A stretch of DNA of 64,000 nt, from positions 192,492 to 256,491 of the forward strand of contig JAVZOV010000003.1 of NCBI GenBank assembly GCA_038881895.1, written 5' to 3'. Origin of the DNA: Thermoprotei archaeon (GTDB lineage Archaea > Thermoproteota > Thermoprotei > Gearchaeales > WAQG01). How positions within the stretch are numbered: the stretch's first letter is position 1; every line of letters begins with the position of its first letter. The position numbers and the translations under genes are program-made. Below, one piece after another: positions 21,408 through 58,631 of the stretch. The notes under the pieces are model-generated. The model worked only from the letters and a program-made list of their open reading frames with translations. It did no database searches and had not been told where the DNA came from.

Positions 21408-22600
21408 TCAGCGCTTATTTAACTCGTCACATAATGGGGTTCTGAGTTGAGTAGGAATGCATAGTGAATTGTTGCTTTTATTCCTACTTAACCCTTCCCT
21501 CTCGATTAATTCGTTGGGGGCTCTCGGGGAGAACCCAATTCCCCGCATCTGAAGGTTCAACACCGCTACAACATCCCTATCCATTGTTAACCCGCATTCT
21601 TCGCACTTCATTATCCTGCCCAGATAGGAAGCCATGCTTCCGGAGCAGGCTGGGCAGGTTTTAGACGAGTTGGCTGGGTTAACGTATTTTGTTGGTAAAT
21701 TAAGCCATTTAAGCTTGTATTCGAGCATGAGTTGGAATGTTCTTGCGTTCCACTTTGAGAGCTTTCTGTTATTTTTCCTTGAGCCGTTGAGGATTCGTCT
21801 CTTTACACCTTTCAGGTTTTCAAGTATTGCTCCGCAGTTCTTCTCCTTGAGCTCCCTCGCAATCTGCGTGGTTAGTTTATGCATGAAGTCTTTAGCCCTA
21901 TTCTTCTCACGCTTAGAGTACTTCTCTAATAGTCTCTTTGAGGTTAGAGGCTTAATCTTAGATAACTTTTGCATCCTCTGCCGCTTTACCTCATAAACTC
22001 TATGAATGTGGTAGAGCTCTCTTAAGTCATAGCGCTTGACCTCGCCACCTATGAACGCCGTCACGTTCGTTAAGTTCACATCGAAGGAAGCCCACTTTTC
22101 TGCCTTCGGCTCAACCCTCTTCTTAACTGTAATTATCAACTCCCTCTCAGTCATAAGTAGCCCACCGACTTTATCAAAGTCTTTGGAATCCACGAACACT
22201 CACTCAAGTCGACCTCAAGATAACGCTTATTCGGTTCAATGCTTACCCTCAGCATGCCATTTCTGAAGCTGAAGAGCGTGCTCTTGATGTAAACGGTTTT
22301 TTTAGTTATCTCAGGAGACTCCTTTGCTTTCCCCCTATTGTAGAGCGTTATCCAGCCCTTAACTAATCCGATGACAGAGTTCATTGCTGAGTCAACGTAA
22401 TGCTTTGAGTATCTCCACTCCCGTAGCAATCCATCCCTAAGCTCTCTCCTATCCTCAGCTTTCAAGTTAAGGTGAGCCTTCTTGGAAATTTTAACGTGTG
22501 AGAAGATTGCGTCTAAAGCCTTCCGCTTAACTTTGAAGTATTCCTCGATTAAATCCTTCGGAGCCTCTACTGGGATCCCGTAGCTTTTAACTGCTTCCAT
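21408..22600 (-). pseudogene. tnpB: tnpB (IS607-type), frameshifted
   Basis: The N-terminal part (22600 to about 22184) and the C-terminal part (about 22199-21408) are in different frames. Compared with the intact copy (AAGTCTCTTGGAATCC) this one reads AAGTCTTTGGAATCC near 22181, a one-base deletion. Otherwise RuvC-I Asp (ASFDVNLTNV), RuvC-II Glu (AILENLKGVK), the CPACSG...CEECG zinc finger and RuvC-III Asp (LTMDRDVVAVLN) are intact. The deletion looks recent. Confidence 0.85.
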
Positions 22601-22824
22601 AGCCTTTCAACTTCGCTCTTTGGATATCTCAGCTTGCCAGTTGGGAGCCTAACAGCTCTAATAATGCCTTTCCTTTGCCACTCCCAGAGCGTTTTAACTG
22701 AGATGTTGAATATCTTTGCAACATCCTTTGGTCTAAGCAGTTCCTCGTAATCTCCAGACGTCATTAAGGATAAAGTAATCAACCTCTATTTAAACCTGTC
22801 CGTCTCGAAACTGCTGACAACGGC
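21437..22824 (-). mobile_element. IS607-like element, degenerate copy
   Basis: Left end (minus strand) GCCGTTGTCAGCAGTTTCGA with TTTAAATAGAGG promoter-like motif; right end CTACTCAACTCAGAACCCC. Contains an HTH-only tnpA-like gene followed by tnpB with a frameshift. About 85-90 percent identical by eye to the copy at 56976-58364. The ends are next to GG/CC, the preferred target of IS607 serine recombinases. Confidence 0.8.
22567..22782 (-). CDS. HTH-only TnpA-like protein of IS607-type element
   Basis: 71 residues. A MerR-type helix-turn-helix (LRPKDVAKIFNISVKTLWEW, then KGIIRAVRLPTGKLRYPKSE) equal to the N-terminal domain of IS607 TnpA, but the serine-recombinase catalytic domain that should follow is absent. 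It ends ATGSQ and overlaps tnpB. It is nearly identical to the 58107-58322 protein, so the truncation predates the spread of both copies. Confidence 0.85.
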   Translation of the reverse strand: MITLSLMTSGDYEELLRPKDVAKIFNISVKTLWEWQRKGIIRAVRLPTGKLRYPKSEVERLWKQLKATGSQ

Positions 22825-22921
22825 ATCGTTCATGAGTGAAAAGAAGCGTAAATTAGAGTTAACTGCATAGAAAGTGTTGCTTAACTCTATATTTAAATGC
22901 TTCTAACGGTTATAATTTCAT

Positions 22922-34761: not shown

Positions 34762-34995
34762 AGATAAATGGGCAAAGTTTAAACATGATGTTAACTCACT
34801 AAATTTGGAATGTTCCCGATGTGGATGGAATAACATCTGAACTAGAGCGAAAACATAGCTCGTAAGATGGTGAGTCCTATGGGATGGTGAAGTTGTGAGC
34901 ACCTCAAACCAGGTGACTGGGAGTGCAAAAGCTCCGGGCGAACGCTGGGAACTCCTAACTTTAGTTGAGTCGTGGAGTAGCTCACATGATGGTAA
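34762..34995 (+). mobile_element. tnpB 3' remnant of a separate TnpB lineage
   Basis: Bases 34793-34840 encode VNSLNLECSRCGWNNI then a stop, the start of the tnpB zinc finger. After it come ACCTCAAACCAGGTGACTGG and CTTTAGTTGAGTCGTGGAGTAGCTCAC, typical of the right-end structure of archaeal IS200/605 tnpB elements. The rest of tnpB is lost. Different sequence from the other elements here. The remaining bases of 34461-35043 are AT-rich without a gene. Confidence 0.55.
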
Positions 34996-35043
34996 TGAGG
35001 CGAAAAATTTATCATAGTCTTTTTACTAGTTAGGGATGCTGGG

Positions 35044-35179
35044 CCCGGGGTAGCTAAGCCTGGTATAGCTTCCGGCTGTAGGTATCAGCCACCTAGACAA
35101 CTGGGGTCGCGAGCCTGAGAATGAGTCTAGGTCAGCAGGTACCGGAAGGCCGTGGGTTCAAATCCCACCCCCGGGACCA
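35044..35179 (+). tRNA. tRNA-Tyr (GUA) with a 59-base intron
   Basis: Acceptor CCCGGGG/CCCCGGG with C1-G72, the archaeal tRNA-Tyr identity pair, discriminator A and encoded CCA. D arm GCTA...TAGC, anticodon loop CTGTAG|A giving GUA, T arm GTGGG-TTCAAAT-CCCAC. The intron occupies 35082-35140 at position 37/38; BHB central helix CTGT/GCAG with bulges AGG and GTA. Inside the intron ACCTAGA pairs with TCTAGGT. Confidence 0.93.
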
Positions 35180-35272
35180 GTCTTCTTGTGATTGTGATTA
35201 TTCAAAGGAAATGTGATTACGACGTTATCACAATAATCATGGATTGCTCTGATGTATTATAATGTTATTTTT

Positions 35273-35297
35273 TACCCCCTTATTTCCTCTGGAATGT
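35273..35297 (-). promoter_or_regulatory. ORB-like sequence
   Basis: On the minus strand: ATTCCAGAGGAAATAAGGGG followed by GTAAA. It shares the TTCCAG-GGAAA dyad and the following G-run with the two ORB sequences at 40.6-40.9 kb, with one mismatch in the dyad. Single copy; could bind Orc1/Cdc6 or be chance. Confidence 0.4.
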
Positions 35298-35324
35298 GAT
35301 TTTTAAAGTATGTGATTAGTCACA

Positions 35325-35867
35325 TTACTGTTTTTCTAGCAGTTTTTTCTTTATCTCTTCTGGTACTCTATACGTGAAAGGCATTTTTGTTTCATCTCTT
35401 ATTAAGAGACCTTTATCAACCATTCTCTTCATCGTTCTTGCTATATGCTCTCTTGCCATTCCTAACATTTTAGCTATCCCTGTTGCTCCTTCTACACCGT
35501 ATGATGAATCTTGTAATAATAATCTTAGTATTTTCTCCTCCGTTATCGATAATCCTAACAGCTCTCTTTCTTTTTCAACTGCTTTTTCGGATAACATTTC
35601 ATTTAATGATAGATACTTTGATGTATAGTTTTCATACTTTCTTCTTATCCTTTGGTCTTTTGCTGATTGTTGAGTCTTTTGATAAAGTTCTTCCATCATT
35701 TCTCTCATCCGTCTTATTTCAAACCTAATTTTAGTTATGTCATCTTCTATGTACGCTAAACGTTCTTCAAGTATTCTATCTCTTCCCTTCATAGATTCTA
35801 CCAAATCTATTAAAGACTGCAAACGTGCCTCAAGTGAGCTTAATGGTATGTATGCTTTTCGTTCCAT
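35325..35867 (-). CDS. Winged-helix DNA-binding protein with N-terminal coiled coil
   Basis: 180 residues. Residues 8-75 form heptad-like repeats (ARLQSLIDLVESMKGRDRIL, EERLAYIEDDITKIRFEIRR), a likely coiled coil for oligomerisation. Residues 105-175 form a MarR/TrmB-like winged helix (TEEKILRLLLQDSSYGVEGA, GIAKMLGMAREHIARTMKRM). It is surrounded by GTGAT repeats, so autoregulation or another role at these sites is likely. No family name can be given with confidence. Confidence 0.65.
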   Translation of the reverse strand: MERKAYIPLSSLEARLQSLIDLVESMKGRDRILEERLAYIEDDITKIRFEIRRMREMMEELYQKTQQSAKDQRIRRKYENYTSKYLSLNEMLSEKAVEKERELLGLSITEEKILRLLLQDSSYGVEGATGIAKMLGMAREHIARTMKRMVDKGLLIRDETKMPFTYRVPEEIKKKLLEKQ

Positions 35868-36292
35868 TTAACATCTACAATATTATTTGTGACATGTGAT
35901 ATATAAACTCATCTCACAATCACGGTGATTAACTATTTTTATAAAATCATGGATCATATTTTATGATATATCATAAAACAGTTTATGAAAAAAATAAAAA
36001 ACATAGGATATATAGCCAGAAATATGCAAAAATATCTAATGATATGTGTGAGATTTAATATGATAAACAATTCTTTTTTAAAGATGAAAATATTACGTGA
36101 TTAAGTCACTGAAAGTCATTTTATGATTCGTGATTTCAATGTAAAATACTTGCTTATTTTTCAGTGATTTTTCTTTATTATGATAATTGTGATAAAAGTC
36201 ACGGGCGTGGTGTGATATCTTATTAAAATCATTAGCTGTGACTAAGTTATGCGAAAAAGATCATGTGGTTTTATGGCTTACCATTGTGATTT
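35868..36292. other. Repeat-rich intergenic region upstream of the winged-helix gene
   Basis: 425 bases with no gene. It holds about a dozen of the GTGAT half-sites and, near 35943-35985, overlapping palindromes (ATCATGGATCAT, TTTATGATATATCATAAA). This is the promoter side of the winged-helix gene and the 3' side of the aminotransferase gene. Confidence 0.6.
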
Positions 36293-37654
36293 TTATAATG
36301 TTTTTTCTGTGACTCTTATGTTTTTCTCGATTATTTCAATTGCTTTCTCAGCTAGTTCTCGTGTCATAGTTAATGGTGGTGCTATTCTTAGTGTTGATTT
36401 TCCTGCCGTTATTAATGCAACACCTTGCTTCCAGCTTTGTATAATAATATTTTCAGCTTCCTTAATCCCTGGTTCTTTAGTTTTTTTATCCTTCACTATT
36501 TCTACACCTATCATAAAACCTTTTCCTCTTACATCTCCTACTATTTTACTACTTTCTTCGATTTCTTTAAAATGTTTGTAAATATAATCCCCTACTTTCT
36601 GCACATTTTCAAGGAGGTTATTTTTCTCTATATACTCAATAGTCGATAGTGATGCGACACATGATACAGGATTCCCGCCGAATGTTGATGCGTGAGATCC
36701 CTTCTCCCATGTCATGACATCTTTACTTGCTATCATTGCTCCTAAAGGTAATCCTGAGGCGATGGCTTTTGCTAATGTTATTATGTCAGGTTTAACATTC
36801 CAATGCTCTATTGCAAACCATTTACCGGTTCGTCCAAAACCTGCTTGTATTTCATCATCTATGAATAAGATCCCATATTTTTCAGCTAGTTTTTTTAATT
36901 TTTCAAAATATCCCTGAGGCGGCCAAACATAACCTCCCTCACCCTGCACCGGTTCTACTACTATGCCTGCTACTTCTTCAGGTGGTACATATTTCGAGAG
37001 AACCCATTCTTCAATATAGTCAACGCAATATAGATTACATTCTGGATATTGTAGATGAAATGGGCATCTATAACAATATGGATACGGAACCTGAACTGTT
37101 GCTGGAACGAGTGGCGAAAATCCTTTCCGTTGCACTGGCTTTGATGCCGTCAAACTCATAGCTCCATAAGTTCTTCCATGAAACGATCCTATGAACGAAA
37201 AAAGGTAAGGCCGACCAGTTTTATATCTTGCCAACTTCATTGCTGCTTCTATTGCTTCAGCTCCACTATTCGAAAAATGAACCATTTTCTCTTTACCGTT
37301 TACAGGAACGATTTTTGTTAATTTCTCTGCTAATGTTACGGCCTCTTCATAATAAAAGTCTGTGAGACTATAGTGTAAAAATTTATCAACTTGCCTTTTT
37401 ATTGCTTCAGTAACTTCTTTTGGACGTCCAACATTAAGTACTACTAATCCAGAATTAAAATCTATATACTCATTACCATCAACATCGACCACTACATTTT
37501 CTTTAACTTCCTTTACAACCAAAGGATAGAAGCGAACATAAGAACGTGAAATAACTTTACTATCACGTTCAATTATTTTTTGAGCATTTGGGCCTGGTGG
37601 TGGAACGACAATTTTAGGTAAATCGTGAGGTTTATTGATAGACTCTTCACCCAT
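36293..37654 (-). CDS. Class III aminotransferase (GABA/ornithine aminotransferase or racemase-like)
   Basis: About 453 residues, PLP enzyme of the acetylornithine/4-aminobutyrate aminotransferase family. PLP-binding region SNSGAEAIEAAMKLAR; FIGSFHGRTYGAMSLTASK; Asp in LFIDDEIQAGFGRTGKWFA; Schiff-base Lys in IITLAKAIASGLPLGAM. Cys-rich insert CYRCPFHLQYPECNLYC is shared with archaeal relatives. Pyrococcus paralogues of this type include ornithine aminotransferase and amino-acid racemases, so activity is open. GGTGG six bases before ATG at 37654 picks the start; a longer frame begins nine codons upstream. Confidence 0.9.
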   Translation of the reverse strand: MGEESINKPHDLPKIVVPPPGPNAQKIIERDSKVISRSYVRFYPLVVKEVKENVVVDVDGNEYIDFNSGLVVLNVGRPKEVTEAIKRQVDKFLHYSLTDFYYEEAVTLAEKLTKIVPVNGKEKMVHFSNSGAEAIEAAMKLARYKTGRPYLFSFIGSFHGRTYGAMSLTASKPVQRKGFSPLVPATVQVPYPYCYRCPFHLQYPECNLYCVDYIEEWVLSKYVPPEEVAGIVVEPVQGEGGYVWPPQGYFEKLKKLAEKYGILFIDDEIQAGFGRTGKWFAIEHWNVKPDIITLAKAIASGLPLGAMIASKDVMTWEKGSHASTFGGNPVSCVASLSTIEYIEKNNLLENVQKVGDYIYKHFKEIEESSKIVGDVRGKGFMIGVEIVKDKKTKEPGIKEAENIIIQSWKQGVALITAGKSTLRIAPPLTMTRELAEKAIEIIEKNIRVTEKTL

Positions 37655-37904
37655 AGAATACCACCGAAATATTAAGATCACGCACCTTTATATATATTTC
37701 TAACTTCGTACTATTTTAACAAATTTCTTCATAACTTCGAAATATAACTATCATCAATCAAAAATATAACCACTCGTTTATATAAGAAAATCGTACTCAA
37801 AATTTTCTTTCATAACGCTAACTAGATTTATTTAGAGAATTTAGATAATTTACGGATCATAAAGTTTAATAGTTTTTGCGATAAAAAATATTTTGGTGTA
37901 CAGT

Positions 37905-38396
37905 ATGAGCGTTCAATTAAAAATTGTGAAAATAGTGCCACCAGAGGGTACAAATATTATTATAGGACAAACACACTTTATTAAGACTACTGAAGACATT
38001 TATGAACTTTTCGTTACAATAACACCTCATATAAAGTTTGGATTGGCATTCTGCGAATCATCAGGCCCACGTTTAGTGAGGCGCGAAGGTAATGATCAGG
38101 AGCTTATAGAATTAGCAACGAAGTACGCTTTAGATGTTGGAGCCGGTCATGTATTTGTAATCGTAATTAAAGGTGGTTATCCCATAAATGTATTAAATGC
38201 TCTTAAAAATGTTCAAGAAGTTGTAGGACTTTATTGTGCTACCGCTAACCCGATCGAGGTAATCGTAGCCGAAACAGAACAAGGCAGAGGAGTTTTAGGC
38301 GTCATAGACGGAGGGTCTCCACTAGGTGTTGAGAAAGAAGATGACATTAAGGCAAGACGCGATTTTCTAAGAAAAATAGGATACAAACTTAGATAA
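37905..38396 (+). CDS. Adenosine-specific kinase (DUF355)
   Basis: About 163 residues. The conserved blocks FGLAFCESSGPRLVRREGND, DVGAGHVFVIVIKGGYPINVL and VYCATANP-like GLYCATANPIEVIVAETEQG are those of the archaeal adenosine-specific kinase first solved from Pyrobaculum. Consistent with purine salvage alongside the nucleoside transporter of this window (inference). GGTG before ATG 37905; ORF could begin four codons earlier. Its 3' end overlaps the convergent DUF2070 gene by eight bases. Confidence 0.9.
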   Translation: MSVQLKIVKIVPPEGTNIIIGQTHFIKTTEDIYELFVTITPHIKFGLAFCESSGPRLVRREGNDQELIELATKYALDVGAGHVFVIVIKGGYPINVLNALKNVQEVVGLYCATANPIEVIVAETEQGRGVLGVIDGGSPLGVEKEDDIKARRDFLRKIGYKLR

Positions 38397-40134
38397 CATT
38401 AAATATTACAGTGATGAACGCAGCAATCATGAAAATAATAATAGGATATAATTCACCTTTAGGAACATATTTTTTCGCCATCTCATCTAATTTATAAAGA
38501 TTTTTCCCTAAAATCCTCAAATCTGTTATTGTAACATTAATATCACTTACTAATATTCTCTCCTTAAGATCTGCATTTTTCAGCCTATCCAGTATGATTT
38601 TTATTATTTCCGAAATATTACCATTTTCACCTAGCATGCTATAACCCTTTCCTCCTGGAACCAAAGCTACTACCGAATGTGTATCGCTTGTACACACTTC
38701 CCCATCATAACCTATTTTTAATGTTTCATTTATTATCTGTTCTCTTAATCCAACAATCATATTATTGGAATCAAAAAGCATTATGTAAAATGGTTTTTCA
38801 TTTTTAGGCTCCAAAACCATTATAGCAATACCACCCTCGCCATATCCTTCATGAGGTTTTCCTGGAAACGCTGTCTTTACAAGACTTATTTTTCCCTGTC
38901 TCTTTTCCAATTGTTTAAGCTGCATTAACGCTTTTTCTATTGCTTTTATTGAAGATCTACCGGCAATATCCTTCGAGAGTATTTCTGATCTGTCATTTGA
39001 GAGAGCGTTATGAGCATCTATTATTATTGGTTCCTTTAAACCAAGACTTTGGGAAAGTTTTTTTACTGGGTTTACAATATTTTCTGGTAAATCCTCCATC
39101 GGTAATGGTGATGCAGTCACAGTTATTATTGGAATATCATTAATTAAGAATGCCTTGACTTTTATCTGATCCTCACTAACATCTATAAGCCTTGTTAAGT
39201 ATACTTCATCAGTTTGTGATTGAGAGTTAATTATCGCCGTTTTTATCAATGATATTACTCTTTCCCTATCGTCATTAAGCACTAGATCAGATTCATGATT
39301 TGATGGAACATGGAATGGCATTGCAACAACACTCATCTCATCCCACATTTTTTTCATTATCTCAGAAGGTAAATTCGAACTACCCATATGCATTATAGGA
39401 CCTGGATGTATCGGTATTGATATTAATACCCCAATCGGTTTGCTCTCATTATAAAACACTAACAACCGCGCAATGTAATCTGCGGATGTAGATATGCTAG
39501 AAAACACTTGTTCAAGAGCTGTAGAATCCTTATTTGACCAAAGCCTCAGAAATGCACGAAATAGAGATATTGGACCAAGCCCAAACTTCCTCTTACCACT
39601 AATTTCAATGTACGCCATATAAACAAATCCTACCGCAGTTAAAATAAACGGAAGGAAAAAATCAATCAAAGAATTCTTCAAATTCTTTAATACAACGTCA
39701 TTAAAGTATAACATAGAAGACGATAACGGAAGCAGACACATAATACTCATTAACCCACGTTTAAAACTCTTTGTAATAACAGGTAGAGAATTAAAAACAA
39801 ACGACAATATAGTAGCCGATAATATTGCCCCTAATATTCCAGAAATTATATCTTTTAAAAGAAGATGCAAAAGACCTGCAAAAATTATCATAATATATAT
39901 TCCCAAACCTCTTCTCTTTGTAATATATTGATCTATCCTTCCATAAAGTAATAACACCGCTATACTCATTATGATTATTACATTAACTATCATAAATCCA
40001 ACATTAAAAAAGATCACAGGAATTACTACATACAACAACGATAACACAAATGCCATCATTAGTAACAATCTTAAATTAGGTAATGACCATAACTTAGAAT
40101 AATGAAGTGGAATAGATAAACCATCATCACTCAT
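38389..40134 (-). CDS. DUF2070 family archaeal membrane protein
   Basis: 581 residues. About six N-terminal membrane helices (residues 18-185), a large soluble domain (about 200-545) with HPGPIMHMGSSNLPSEI and DAHNALSNDRSEI motifs, and a C-terminal helix (YPIIIFMIAAFITVIFNVI). Metal-binding-like His/Asp residues suggest an enzyme, but function is unknown. Sec61-beta lies just upstream on the same strand, ten bases away, a pairing common in archaea. Confidence 0.85.
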   Translation of the reverse strand: MSDDGLSIPLHYSKLWSLPNLRLLLMMAFVLSLLYVVIPVIFFNVGFMIVNVIIIMSIAVLLLYGRIDQYITKRRGLGIYIMIIFAGLLHLLLKDIISGILGAILSATILSFVFNSLPVITKSFKRGLMSIMCLLPLSSSMLYFNDVVLKNLKNSLIDFFLPFILTAVGFVYMAYIEISGKRKFGLGPISLFRAFLRLWSNKDSTALEQVFSSISTSADYIARLLVFYNESKPIGVLISIPIHPGPIMHMGSSNLPSEIMKKMWDEMSVVAMPFHVPSNHESDLVLNDDRERVISLIKTAIINSQSQTDEVYLTRLIDVSEDQIKVKAFLINDIPIITVTASPLPMEDLPENIVNPVKKLSQSLGLKEPIIIDAHNALSNDRSEILSKDIAGRSSIKAIEKALMQLKQLEKRQGKISLVKTAFPGKPHEGYGEGGIAIMVLEPKNEKPFYIMLFDSNNMIVGLREQIINETLKIGYDGEVCTSDTHSVVALVPGGKGYSMLGENGNISEIIKIILDRLKNADLKERILVSDINVTITDLRILGKNLYKLDEMAKKYVPKGELYPIIIFMIAAFITVIFNVI

Positions 40135-40143
40135 TATTTCTCA

Positions 40144-40329
40144 CTAAGGAAGTACTCTAGCTTGTGCCAAAAGCACTAATGCCATTATTAATATCGATAT
40201 GAATATCACAATAGGTGGGCTTATCTTTACATTAGAGATATCCTCATCATAAAATCTTATCAGACCTGCCCCTGTTACAGGTGTCGCCTCACGCCTTTTT
40301 CCACCTTTTCTTTTCTCCTTTCTTGACAT
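40144..40329 (-). CDS. secG: Preprotein translocase subunit Sec61-beta (SecG)
   Basis: 61 residues. Basic N-terminus (MSRKEKRKGGKRREATPVTG), then AGLIRFYDEDISNVKISPPI and one C-terminal membrane helix. This is the archaeal Sec61-beta pattern. It is a tail-anchored accessory part of the SecYE channel. Confidence 0.93.
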   Translation of the reverse strand: MSRKEKRKGGKRREATPVTGAGLIRFYDEDISNVKISPPIVIFISILIMALVLLAQARVLP

Positions 40330-40628
40330 CTCACACTTTCTTATGTTTCTCTTCTACTTAAATTTTAATTTTTCATTTTACACTCTTCCACATAAGCTCA
40401 TTCCATTACAAACACTCCCTCACAATTCATCCTATCATAATCCACAAAAGAACATCAAGACATAGCAAAGCTGAAAAACTAATAAAATAATTAACATGAT
40501 ATAATGAATAACACTTGAACAAAACATTTTTCCCTTAGATATTTAGTATGAATTTTTTAGTTATGTTTTTCTATAAAAATAAAAAAATTTAAATTAAATT
40601 GTTAAAAATTATTTTTTAGAAATAAATA

Positions 40629-40867
40629 CTCCCACACCCCTTTATTTCCACTGGAAATAATATAGCATTATCCTGTTATTTTTCTACTAAAATATTTTTT
40701 AGTAAAATACATGAATATCTGTACCATAAAGCATTTAATATTTTAAAGAAATAACAAATGGGGTATTTTATTCTTAAGGAAATATGTTATTCTTAAACAA
40801 AAAGTTAATATCATGAAGAAACAGCATTTTGCTCACTAGTTCCAGTGGAAACAGAGGGGTGTGGGGG
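40629..40867. other. Probable replication origin: inverted ORB pair around AT-rich DNA
   Basis: Plus strand 40840-40866 reads TTCCAGTGGAAACAGAGGGG then TGTGGGG; the reverse complement of 40629-40656 reads TTCCAGTGGAAATAAAGGGG then TGTGGGAG. These agree with the archaeal origin recognition box: a dyad followed by a G-string. They face each other across about 180 bases of DNA with very few G/C, a suitable unwinding element. Genes on the left are mostly leftward (Sec61-beta, DUF2070, aminotransferase) and FAD synthase on the right is rightward. No orc1/cdc6 gene is in the window. The inverted copies also could be read as a MITE with terminal repeats, but the ORB match is specific. Bases 40330-40628 are AT-rich with no gene. 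Confidence 0.7.
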
Positions 40868-41202
40868 TTCTGAGTTAAGTAGAGATTCATAGTGTTTTAT
40901 CACCTCTACTCAACTCTTCCCTCTCGATTAGCTCATCGAGGGCTTTCGGGGTAAACCCGACATCCCCACATCCGAAGGTCAACCCCCAGCCCACCCATCC
41001 CCATAGGAAGTCATGCTTCCAGAGCAGAGGGGACATTAAAACGTATGAGCAACCTCTATTTAAACCTATCTGCTCTGAAAATACTGACAAAGGCAGCTAA
41101 ACGCTGCCTCTTAGCCTCTTTGAGAGTGCAAAGCTTCTCCATCAAGAAGATATTATGGCTTATCTCTATTTAAGTCTATCTATTTTGAAACTGTTTTTTA
41201 AG
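40865..41202 (-). mobile_element. IS607-derived mini-element (copy B)
   Basis: Reverse-complement copy of the element at 16752-17081, from CTTAAAAAACAGTTTCAAAA (minus strand, ending 41202) to TCTACTTAACTCAGAACCC (40865). It abuts the G-run of the right ORB, in keeping with a GG target. The internal 67-codon frame is the same end-to-end fusion seen in copy A. Bases 41203-41402 downstream are AT-rich and carry the promoter of the FAD synthase gene. Confidence 0.8.
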
Positions 41203-41402
41203 TCTTTCTTTATAGCAATTCTCTAACTAAACCGTTATTTAGAGAATGTGTGTTTCCATTATCTTAATTTAAAATTTATTGTTTTATTTTTTGTTTAATA
41301 TTTTCTGGTGAATGTTTTATTTGATTTTCTTAATTATTCTTTGATCTTCAATGTATGCAATTCAATTTATATTTCTGGTGGAATTTTATAGTTTGGGATG
41401 CA

Positions 41403-41861
41403 ATGAAGAGGAAAAAAGTATTAGTGGCTGGTACATTCGATATAATTCATCCTGGTCATTTATATCTTTTTAAGAAAGCTAATGAGTTAGGGGATGTTAT
41501 TGTGATCGTTGCCAGGGATAATTCTGTTAAACGTTTTAAAGGAAGGCCCCCTGTAATACCTGAACAGCAACGATTAGAAGTTGTATCATCAATAAAATAT
41601 GTGAAGAAAGCTATATTGGGTCATGACGATCCAGACATTTTAAAGATTGTTGAAGAAATAAAACCAGATATAATACTTCTTGGTCCTGACCAGAATTTTA
41701 AAGAAGAAGATATAACTAAAGAGTTAGAGAGAAGAGGATTAAGAGTAGAAGTGAGAAGAGCTGAACAATATATAGGATGCTCCTTCTGTAGTACAAGTAA
41801 GATCATTAGAAGAGTAATAGAACTTTATAAAGATAATCAAATCAAAATTCACTATGTTTAA
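41403..41861 (+). CDS. ribL: Archaeal FAD synthase / cytidylyltransferase (RibL-like)
   Basis: About 152 residues. Nucleotidyltransferase motif VAGTFDIIHPGHLYLFKKA (HxGH), KPDIILLGPDQNF and the C-terminal Cys pair in YIGCSFCSTSKIIRRVIELY (ISSTxxI-like CSTSKI) match RibL of Methanocaldococcus, which transfers AMP to FMN. The frame is open 16 codons upstream, but the conserved protein starts at MKRKKVLVAGTF. Confidence 0.85.
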   Translation: MKRKKVLVAGTFDIIHPGHLYLFKKANELGDVIVIVARDNSVKRFKGRPPVIPEQQRLEVVSSIKYVKKAILGHDDPDILKIVEEIKPDIILLGPDQNFKEEDITKELERRGLRVEVRRAEQYIGCSFCSTSKIIRRVIELYKDNQIKIHYV

Positions 41862-55968: not shown

Positions 55969-56985
55969 TTCACGAAGATGATTATTCATTGCTAGTATGT
56001 CCAATTATACATGATGGCCATGTGGCATTTGTTGGTCTATTAATTATTTGAATGCTGTATGCTGGATGAATCTCCGCCCACAAACCGTGATCAGTATCTA
56101 TTACTAAGACTCCAGTTACTTTAACTATATCACCAGGACATACGCCACCACCTATTGGGTCTAACACAGGATGTTGATCAGCTGGAACAACTTCAATATG
56201 CAACATTCCATGTCTAAGTAAATAATTACCTATAGTTAGTACACTCATGTTTTGAGAAATTGGTATTAGATCAAATACAAAATCACCATCCGAAGCATGC
56301 TCTATATAATTACTAACAGTTCCAATAACAGAAACACAAGTATTAACAATACGTAAACGTTCAGGGTCATGGGTCGCAAAGAAAACATTATTCTGACTTG
56401 GACAAAGACTTAAATTATGTTGTGACCATCGGGTTTCAGGATTCCAATTCTCAGGCATAAATGAATAAAATGCTGCCGAAGCATTGTAAAATACTGCTTG
56501 TCCACCTATAATTAGTCCAATAATGCTTAACACAAAAGCTACCTTAGGAAGACTGCTTAGACCATATTTACTCTTTATCCAAAAAAGAAGAACTATTAGA
56601 GATAATATTGACAATAATAGTGTTAACAAGGCAGGAAATGCGTAAAGGGCTAAATAGTATGAAAGAAGCGAAAACAGAGAAGCAAAAGTAGCCACATATC
56701 TATCCCGACTGGACTTTATAGAATAGAATATTACATACACAAACGGTAATAAAAGAACACTGAAGATAGTAAAACCAGTATGTATTCCATCATCTCCATA
56801 GTACAAAATGGCAATTGAAAGAACTATAAGGGATTCAAACGATGAGAGGAATAATGCAGAGGTAAGGTGTCCATAGCGAAGGTTAACATAGGAAGTAAGA
56901 TATGCTAACAGTGGTCTTAAGATTATACTCAAGACAGCAACAATCAAGAATATTGACGAAGTAAATACATAGAATGGGTTCTGGG

Positions 56986-58140
56986 TTAAGTAGGAATATA
57001 TAGTGAATTGTTGCTTTTATTCCTACTTAACCCTTCCCCCTCGATTATTTCATTGGGGGCTCTTTGGGGGAACCCTTCTCCCCGCATCTGAAGGTTCAAC
57101 ACCGCTATGATATCTCTATCCATTGTTAACCCGCACTTTTCGCACTTCATTATCCTGCCCAGATAGGAAGCCATGCCTCCTGAGCAGGCTGGGCAGGTTT
57201 TAGACGAGTTGGCTGGGTTAACGTATTTTACTGGTAGGTTAAGCCATTTCAGCTTGTATTCAAGCATGAACTGAAACGTCCTTGCGTTCCACTTTGAGAG
57301 CTTTCGGTTCACGTCTTTAGACTTGTTGAGGATTCGCCCCTTTATACCTTTCAGGTTTTCAAGTATTGCTCCGCAGTTCTTCTCCTTGAGCTCCCCCGCA
57401 ACCTGTGTGGTTAACTTGTGCATGAAGTCTTTAGCCCTATTCTCCTCACGTTTAGAGTACTTCTCTAATAGTCTCTTTGAGGTTAGAGGCTTAAACTTAG
57501 ATAACTTTTGTATCCTCTGCCGCTTAGTTTCATAGGTTCTGTGAATATGGTAGAGCTCTCTTAAGTCATAGCGCTTGATCTCACCACCTATGAACGCCGT
57601 CACGTTCGTTAAGTTAACATCGAAGGAAGCCCACTCATCAACCTTCGGCTCAACCCTCTTCTTAACCGTTACTATCAACTCACTTTCAGTCATAAGTAGT
57701 CCACCGACTTTATCAAAGTCTCTTGGAATCCACGAACACTTACTCAAGTCAACCTCAAGATACCGCTTACTAGGCTCTACGCTTATCCTCAGTATGCCAT
57801 TTCTGAAGCTGAAGAGCGTGCTTTTAATATATACTGTCCTCTTAGTTATCTTAGGAGGCTCCTTCGCCCTTCTCCTATTGTAGAGCGTTATCCAGCCCTT
57901 AACAAGCCCTATGACAGAGTTTATTGCTGAATCAACGTAATGCTTTGAGTATCTCCATCCCCTCAGCAGTTCATCCCTAAGCCTTTTCCTATTCTCTCTA
58001 TCGAATTCGAGGTGAGCCTTCTCGGAAATTTTAACGTGTGAGAAGATTGTGTCTAAAGCCTTCCGCTTAACTTTGAAGTATTCCTCGATTAAATCCTTCG
58101 GAGCCTCTACTGGGATCCTGTAGCTCTTAATTGCTTCCAT
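56986..58140 (-). CDS. tnpB: TnpB RNA-guided nuclease (IS607-type), intact
   Basis: 384 residues. RuvC-I Asp WASFDVNLTNVTAF, RuvC-II Glu GAILENLKGIKG, zinc finger CPACSGG...CEKCG, RuvC-III Asp LTMDRDIIAVLNLQM. All catalytic residues present. N-terminal EEYFKVKRKALDTIFSHVKI. Its start overlaps the end of the HTH gene by about 34 bases, so the two are translated together. Confidence 0.9.
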   Translation of the reverse strand: MEAIKSYRIPVEAPKDLIEEYFKVKRKALDTIFSHVKISEKAHLEFDRENRKRLRDELLRGWRYSKHYVDSAINSVIGLVKGWITLYNRRRAKEPPKITKRTVYIKSTLFSFRNGILRISVEPSKRYLEVDLSKCSWIPRDFDKVGGLLMTESELIVTVKKRVEPKVDEWASFDVNLTNVTAFIGGEIKRYDLRELYHIHRTYETKRQRIQKLSKFKPLTSKRLLEKYSKREENRAKDFMHKLTTQVAGELKEKNCGAILENLKGIKGRILNKSKDVNRKLSKWNARTFQFMLEYKLKWLNLPVKYVNPANSSKTCPACSGGMASYLGRIMKCEKCGLTMDRDIIAVLNLQMRGEGFPQRAPNEIIEGEGLSRNKSNNSLYIPT

Positions 58141-58322
58141 AATCTCTCAACTTCGCTCTTGGGATATCGGAGCTTGCCAGTTGGGAGCCTAACAGCTCTA
58201 ATAATGCCTTTCCTTTGCCACTCCCAGAGCGTTTTAACTGAGATGTTGAATATCTTTGCAACATCCTTTGGTCTAAGCAGTTCCTCGTAATCTCCAGACG
58301 TCATTAAGGATAAAGTAATCAA
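58107..58322 (-). CDS. HTH-only TnpA-like protein of IS607-type element
   Basis: 71 residues, differing from the 22567-22782 protein by one residue near the C-terminus (Arg for Lys). MerR-like helix-turn-helix and wing (FNISVKTLWEWQRKGIIRAV) are complete; the serine recombinase domain (about 130 residues in normal TnpA) is missing. Its role may be to bind the element's own ends and control tnpB expression. Confidence 0.85.
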   Translation of the reverse strand: MITLSLMTSGDYEELLRPKDVAKIFNISVKTLWEWQRKGIIRAVRLPTGKLRYPKSEVERLWKQLRATGSQ

Positions 58323-58631
58323 CCTCTATTTAAACCTGTCTGTCTCGAAACTGCTGACAACGGCAATAAGCAATACTATAAAGACTATAACTGCAGCAGT
58401 TAATGGCCTGTATATCCAGGATGCTAACAACATTACAACATAAACAAAACCGTATCCGATAAATATTAATGGAGCATTCACCATCGTAGTTACAGCGAAT
58501 CCACTAATTATTACAAAGATTATGTTCGGAAATAATCTTTTGTAATTCATAGAATTCATAATGGATCATGTAACCTATCGCATGATAATTATTTAAGTGC
58601 TTCGATTATTGCATGAAAATATTAGAAGGAA

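Follow-up and report, generated by a model that had tools for sequence, protein, structure and literature searches.

Archaeal origins usually, not universally, have an initiator gene beside them, which we take as a companion and not as a defining feature of an origin. In Sulfolobus, both origin recognition boxes (ORBs) flanking the A+T-rich region of oriC1 are needed and direct MCM there, and in S. islandicus the corresponding ORB3-DUE-ORB2 core, a region of 130 bp, is essential (PMC12141716). A common archaeal ORB motif is available from Ori-Finder 2 (PMC4164010). In Thermoproteus tenax a large distance separates the single conserved ORB from the single cdc6 gene (PMC3189178); the skew minimum, the ORB and cdc6 each pointed to a different place, leaving the origin uncertain. 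In the halophilic euryarchaeon Haloferax volcanii, the mapped origin Ori3 lies where the cumulative GC skew of third codon positions and of non-coding DNA peaks locally (PMC12999951).

We analysed a window of 64,000 nucleotides (192,492-256,491 of contig C3, which is 400,180 bp long) from an archaeal genome of 1.75 Mb in seven contigs. As in Sulfolobus oriC1, two inverted ORBs in the window flank an A+T-rich region, and the genome encodes an Orc1-1 orthologue. Whereas oriC1 lies directly upstream of cdc6-1, orc1-1 is here on another contig; the spacer measures 179 bp, compared with 130 bp for the ORB3-DUE-ORB2 region of S. islandicus, and contains no match to the Sulfolobus ucm motif. In contrast to T. 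tenax, the ORBs and a skew switch agree, and the polarity of that switch is reversed as at H. volcanii Ori3, a likeness in skew. We consider it highly likely that the pair constitutes a chromosomal origin of the archaeal oriC1 type, dependent on Orc1-1 and predicted to fire. This reading follows from the match to the ORB motif, the uniqueness of the pair, the almost wholly archaeal titles among the matches listed elsewhere, the conservation of the pair and its neighbours, the skew switch and the Orc1-1 orthologue, as well as from an anatomy that equals the ORB3-DUE-ORB2 core essential in S. islandicus (PMC12141716). Counted against it are the reversed polarity, the limits of the gene permutation, a block-permutation p-value of 0.03 and the lack of an adjacent orc1 gene.

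Architecture and uniqueness of the paired boxes

We found that inverted arms of 32 nt at positions 40628-40659 and 40837-40868 are 88% complementary, with 177 nt between them, in agreement with the original prediction of paired inverted boxes. Each arm contains TTCCAGTGGAAAnnnAGGGGTGTGGG, whose core occupies 40637-40656 of the minus strand in the left arm and 40840-40859 of the plus strand in the right, and the G-runs extend outwards as far as 40629 and 40867, respectively. Because the left box is on the minus strand and the right box on the plus strand, the dyads are on the inner sides and the G-strings on the outer sides; the two boxes had been described as pointing toward each other, which is true of their dyads, but the boxes themselves diverge. 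The assignment of the dyad and G-string to the ORB class is borne out by the published motif, which the left and right boxes match with zero and one mismatches and a third site at 35.27 kb with two (Table 1). The spacer, previously called nearly pure A/T, measures 78% A+T, so this description was too strong; its G+C content of 21.8%, versus 37.5% for contig C3, is within the lowest 0.5% among all windows of 179 bp, but merely within the lowest 3% among non-coding ones. It carries an imperfect 19-bp tandem repeat at 40764-40801. Comparison of the origin region with Rfam gave no match, even with the threshold relaxed, and the Sulfolobus ucm motif ATTATACAAAC, taken from published oligonucleotides, was not found with up to two mismatches across 38,388-41,289, spacer included.

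Table 1. Positions of the predicted origin elements and neighbouring features in the window
Feature	Position	Strand	Details
Left ORB, TTCCAGTGGAAATAAAGGGGTGTGGGAG	40629..40656	-	Dyad on inner side, G-string outer; 36.6 bits; exact match to Ori-Finder 2 motif
Right ORB, TTCCAGTGGAAACAGAGGGGTGTGGGGG	40840..40867	+	Dyad inner, G-string outer; 35.3 bits; one mismatch to common motif
A+T-rich spacer, candidate duplex unwinding element	40660..40838	.	179 bp, 21.8% G+C; predicted to melt
MITE-like dispersed repeat	40868..41202	+	335 bp; begins right after the G-run of the right ORB; outside the origin
Cytidylyltransferase-like gene	41355..41861	+	Right of the pair
Sec61-beta gene	40144..40329	-	Conserved block; PF03911; ends read from sequence
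DUF2070 membrane protein gene	38389..40134	-	Conserved block
Adenosine-specific kinase gene	37893..38396	+	Block member in G002 and G003
Class-III aminotransferase gene	36293..37681	-	Conserved block
Lone third ORB, TTCCAGAGGAAATAAGGGGGTAAA	35271..35294	-	Aminotransferase side of the block; 24.8 bits; two mismatches

Next, we investigated how specific these boxes are. Across the whole genome, the ORB 25-mer occurs twice at up to three mismatches, both copies being those of the pair, and this is the sole such inverted pair in 1.75 Mb. We then scanned the 400-kb contig C3 with a position matrix derived from 35 relatives' ORBs, to which the window did not contribute, and obtained the scores in Table 1 for the pair and the third site, with everything else below 10 bits; in 100 Markov-1 copies of the window the top score was 22.8 and the mean 8.3. 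When scanning 84,980 prokaryote species with TTCCAGTGGAAACNNAGGGGT, the window's own genome being excluded, at least 80 loci matched, and 78 of the 80 matches listed carry archaeal titles. One of the two others, titled Omnitrophota, encodes an Orc1 that is 54% identical to one from the window's class, so this contig is probably archaeal. Going by the matches listed, the ORB sequence is found nearly exclusively in archaea; an Orc1 homologue is encoded at 26 of these 80 loci, within 1 kb of the box in 20. By the relatives' matrix, divergent pairs within 400 bp occur at 26 of the listed loci, whereas no reversed control locus has a site of 20 bits or more.

Because the right box adjoins a true MITE-like repeat of 335 bp, and because TnpB elements abound in the window, the inverted boxes could be viewed as the ends of a MITE or transposon. 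An inverted-repeat unit of that kind should recur in many near-identical copies. The ORB, however, has just two good genomic copies, no further match to the spacer was found on C3 or in the stretches sampled from other contigs, and the 335-bp repeat begins just outside the right box, the DNA to the left of that boundary being unrelated from copy to copy. Copy number, unrepeated spacer and boundary together refute the boxes as mobile-element ends, a reading to which we attach practically no probability, and the dispersal that the original prediction had named as its refutation is a property of the neighbouring repeat and not of the ORB unit. That repeat has five other near-full-length copies, at 93-98% identity, plus several partial ones; all aligned copies start with TTCTGAG after GGG and are unrelated further left, and the ends of the repeat resemble those of TnpB elements of 1.4 kb, such as the ones at 21440-22825 and 56979-58365. 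Judging from these alignments, the repeat is an insertion at the outer G-run that spared the right box. The target rule may be GGG or GG, as in IS607-type elements. Copies of the repeat lie in loci L386-L392, and some contigs of the assembly end inside copies.

Conservation of the locus in the class and its apparent rearrangement

Upon scanning the genomes of the class with one mismatch allowed, we observed ORB matches in 18 of 44, whereas a reversed control pattern gave hardly any. Genomes with ORB matches belong to several families, and the matches mostly form one cluster per genome, whereas two large families of the class have essentially no matches to the ORB pattern, which is a point against the origin reading and implies that their ORBs, if any, differ. 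A divergent pair is present in 13 of the 15 relative clusters read at length, with a shortest gap per cluster of 68-155 bp, and many of the 15 contain a third ORB; the gaps of the divergent pairs are A+T-enriched relative to their surroundings. A further genome, G003, was looked at separately and has a divergent pair with a gap of 54 bp. Homologues of the aminotransferase, DUF2070 and Sec61-beta genes are found near many relative ORB clusters, and genomes G002, G003, G005, G008, G016 and others share with the window the divergent pair, the A+T-enriched gap and often the same neighbours. In both G002 and G003 the ORB pair is followed by the genes for the aminotransferase, the kinase, DUF2070 and Sec61-beta, in that order, with one ORB overlapping the 3' end of the aminotransferase gene, and in G001, the only genome of the same family, the contig stops 229 bp past the aminotransferase. 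The cytidylyltransferase-like gene was considered as a conserved origin marker and rejected, since it is not kept beside the origins of relatives.

The arrangement around this block differs between genomes. In G002 and G003 the origin is on the 3' side of the aminotransferase gene, whereas in the window the pair is on the 5' side of the Sec61-beta gene and a lone ORB remains on the aminotransferase side, where those two genomes have the whole origin. As the lone ORB stands at the position of the relatives' origin, the locus appears to have been rearranged. The genes that precede Sec61-beta in G002 are absent next to the Sec61-beta gene of the window, and the PcrB-like gene of G002 has its best match on the contig near C3:130 kb. 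We see even chances that the block from aminotransferase through kinase and DUF2070 to Sec61-beta was flipped relative to the origin, or that the origin hopped about 5.4 kb across it, with one ORB left on the old side; the origin may accordingly be split, with a distant third box. A flip would carry one of three ORBs along with the four-gene block, and a flip or a short hop would be the simplest readings of the arrangement.

Several other features lie in the same area. A gene for a small TrmB-like regulator occupies 35325-35867 on the minus strand, between the lone ORB and the aminotransferase gene, and the DNA at 35180-36300 contains many GTGAT/ATCAC words. A tRNA with an apparent intron at 35044-35176 is detected by Rfam and missed by ARAGORN, and its anticodon region reads like tRNA-Tyr; a dispersed-repeat fragment at 34780-35040, with several related copies on C3, adjoins both this tRNA and the lone ORB. 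Upstream of Sec61-beta in G002 (L251:13840-16029, minus strand) is a gene for a protein of 729 aa that resembles the central domain of DP2, the large subunit of DNA polymerase II, weakly and below the cutoff, and no homologue of this protein was found on C3.

The position of the pair between the leftward Sec61-beta gene and the rightward cytidylyltransferase-like gene would also suit an operator, at which a dimeric or Orc1-family regulator on the inverted boxes controls the flanking genes, and an Orc1 paralogue is described as a transcription regulator in Sulfolobus (PMC9738581). We regard this as very improbable: the pairs of relatives sit at other gene borders, for instance overlapping the aminotransferase 3' end, the matches occur in one place per genome and do not form a regulon, and strand asymmetry switches at the locus.

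Strand asymmetry around the pair

Upon examining the disparity curves of contig C3, we observed the cumulative minima at 229,394 for MK and at 236,084 for AT, both within 4 kb of the pair centre at 233,235. The third-codon skew, controlled for strand, switches at 229,479, which is 3.8 kb from the pair (z = −24.5); this value is reached in none of 5000 gene permutations, a procedure that ignores operon-scale correlation, and for the raw MK skew a p-value of 0.03 was obtained by permuting blocks. The polarity at the pair is reversed, the strand leading away being A+C-rich, unlike in G016, where the ORB cluster at 866.5 kb lies near a GC minimum at 868.8 kb and an MK maximum at 867.4 kb, as is usual. 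Neither G002 nor G003 shows significant skew. The original prediction had proposed skew and Z-curve analysis as a check; run on C3, with other contigs sampled, it places the extremes and the switch within about 4 kb of the pair, with the polarity opposite to the usual one. The nearby genes had also been said to run away from the pair, which is a weak tendency: of the genes within 20 kb, 12 of 17 to its left and 11 of 19 to its right do so.

The polarity is of the bacterial terminus type, and this would fit a decayed or dormant origin with genuine ORBs, at which forks now tend to converge while replication starts elsewhere. The lone ORB persisting at the old position and the presence of other switch points in sampled stretches of the genome also speak for such a state, but both boxes are near-perfect and score like the best ORBs of the class, which is unexpected of a relic, and a reversed third-position skew is known at a mapped archaeal origin. 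We therefore hold a decayed origin to be unlikely, though less so than an operator, and favour an active origin. Further third-position skew switches were seen in the sampled stretches at about 350 kb on C3, 230 and 470 kb on C1, and 140 and 350 kb on C2; these may mark other origins or zones of fork convergence, so that more origins in this genome are possible.

Initiator genes and the predicted mode of initiation

We found two intact initiator genes, orc1-1 at C2:234380-235504 and orc1-2 at C1:53872-54975. The Orc1-1 protein is closest to two crystallised proteins, Cdc6-1 of S. solfataricus (2qby_A) and Cdc6 of A. pernix (2v1u_A). The earlier remark that no orc1/cdc6 gene lies beside the pair stands, with the intact copies on other contigs and several class members alike, and the genome search it had recommended returned the pair only, at up to three mismatches, together with the lone ORB at 35271 and these two intact genes. 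The distance from the pair to the nearer end of C3 is 167 kb, which sets the minimum separation from the intact orc1 genes. The DNA beside each of these two genes revealed neither an ORB-like site nor a convincing paired repeat. Where both can be placed in relatives, no orc1 gene is adjacent to the ORB cluster either, and in those with long contigs the distance to the nearest one is about 42-101 kb. A third, partial orc1/cdc6 copy at C3:313166-313696 (L003), about 80 kb from the pair, has two in-frame TAA stops and is a pseudogene.

With respect to the features by which origins of this type are recognised, the locus has ORBs with dyad and G-string, inverted around an A+T-rich region, and an extreme of the disparity curves on C3, albeit with reversed polarity; a cognate Orc1/Cdc6 is encoded in the genome, and no initiator gene is adjacent. 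The motif match, the conservation of the divergent pair in relatives and the skew switch at about 4 kb accordingly uphold the claim of a chromosomal origin, as a prediction. By analogy with Sulfolobus, one Orc1-1 molecule would bind each ORB, and because the ORBs are inverted with their dyads facing the spacer, two MCM helicases would be recruited onto its 179 bp in opposite orientation. MCM loading, melting of the spacer and firing in vivo are expected from the same Sulfolobus work, with bidirectional replication starting in the spacer. The initiator would be supplied in trans by orc1-1 on C2, and not by a neighbouring gene.

Overall, the sequence evidence indicates that this is very probably an origin of a known kind, whose separation from its initiator gene is unusual but not unprecedented. 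With it, a little-studied archaeal class gains a well-supported origin. In several genomes of this class, certain genes recur around the ORB cluster, the initiator gene being elsewhere. The reversed third-position skew is a second archaeal case. The separation from the initiator weakens the common practice of seeking archaeal origins beside orc1/cdc6, and a usable landmark for draft genomes is provided by divergent ORBs close to the genes for the aminotransferase, DUF2070 and Sec61-beta.
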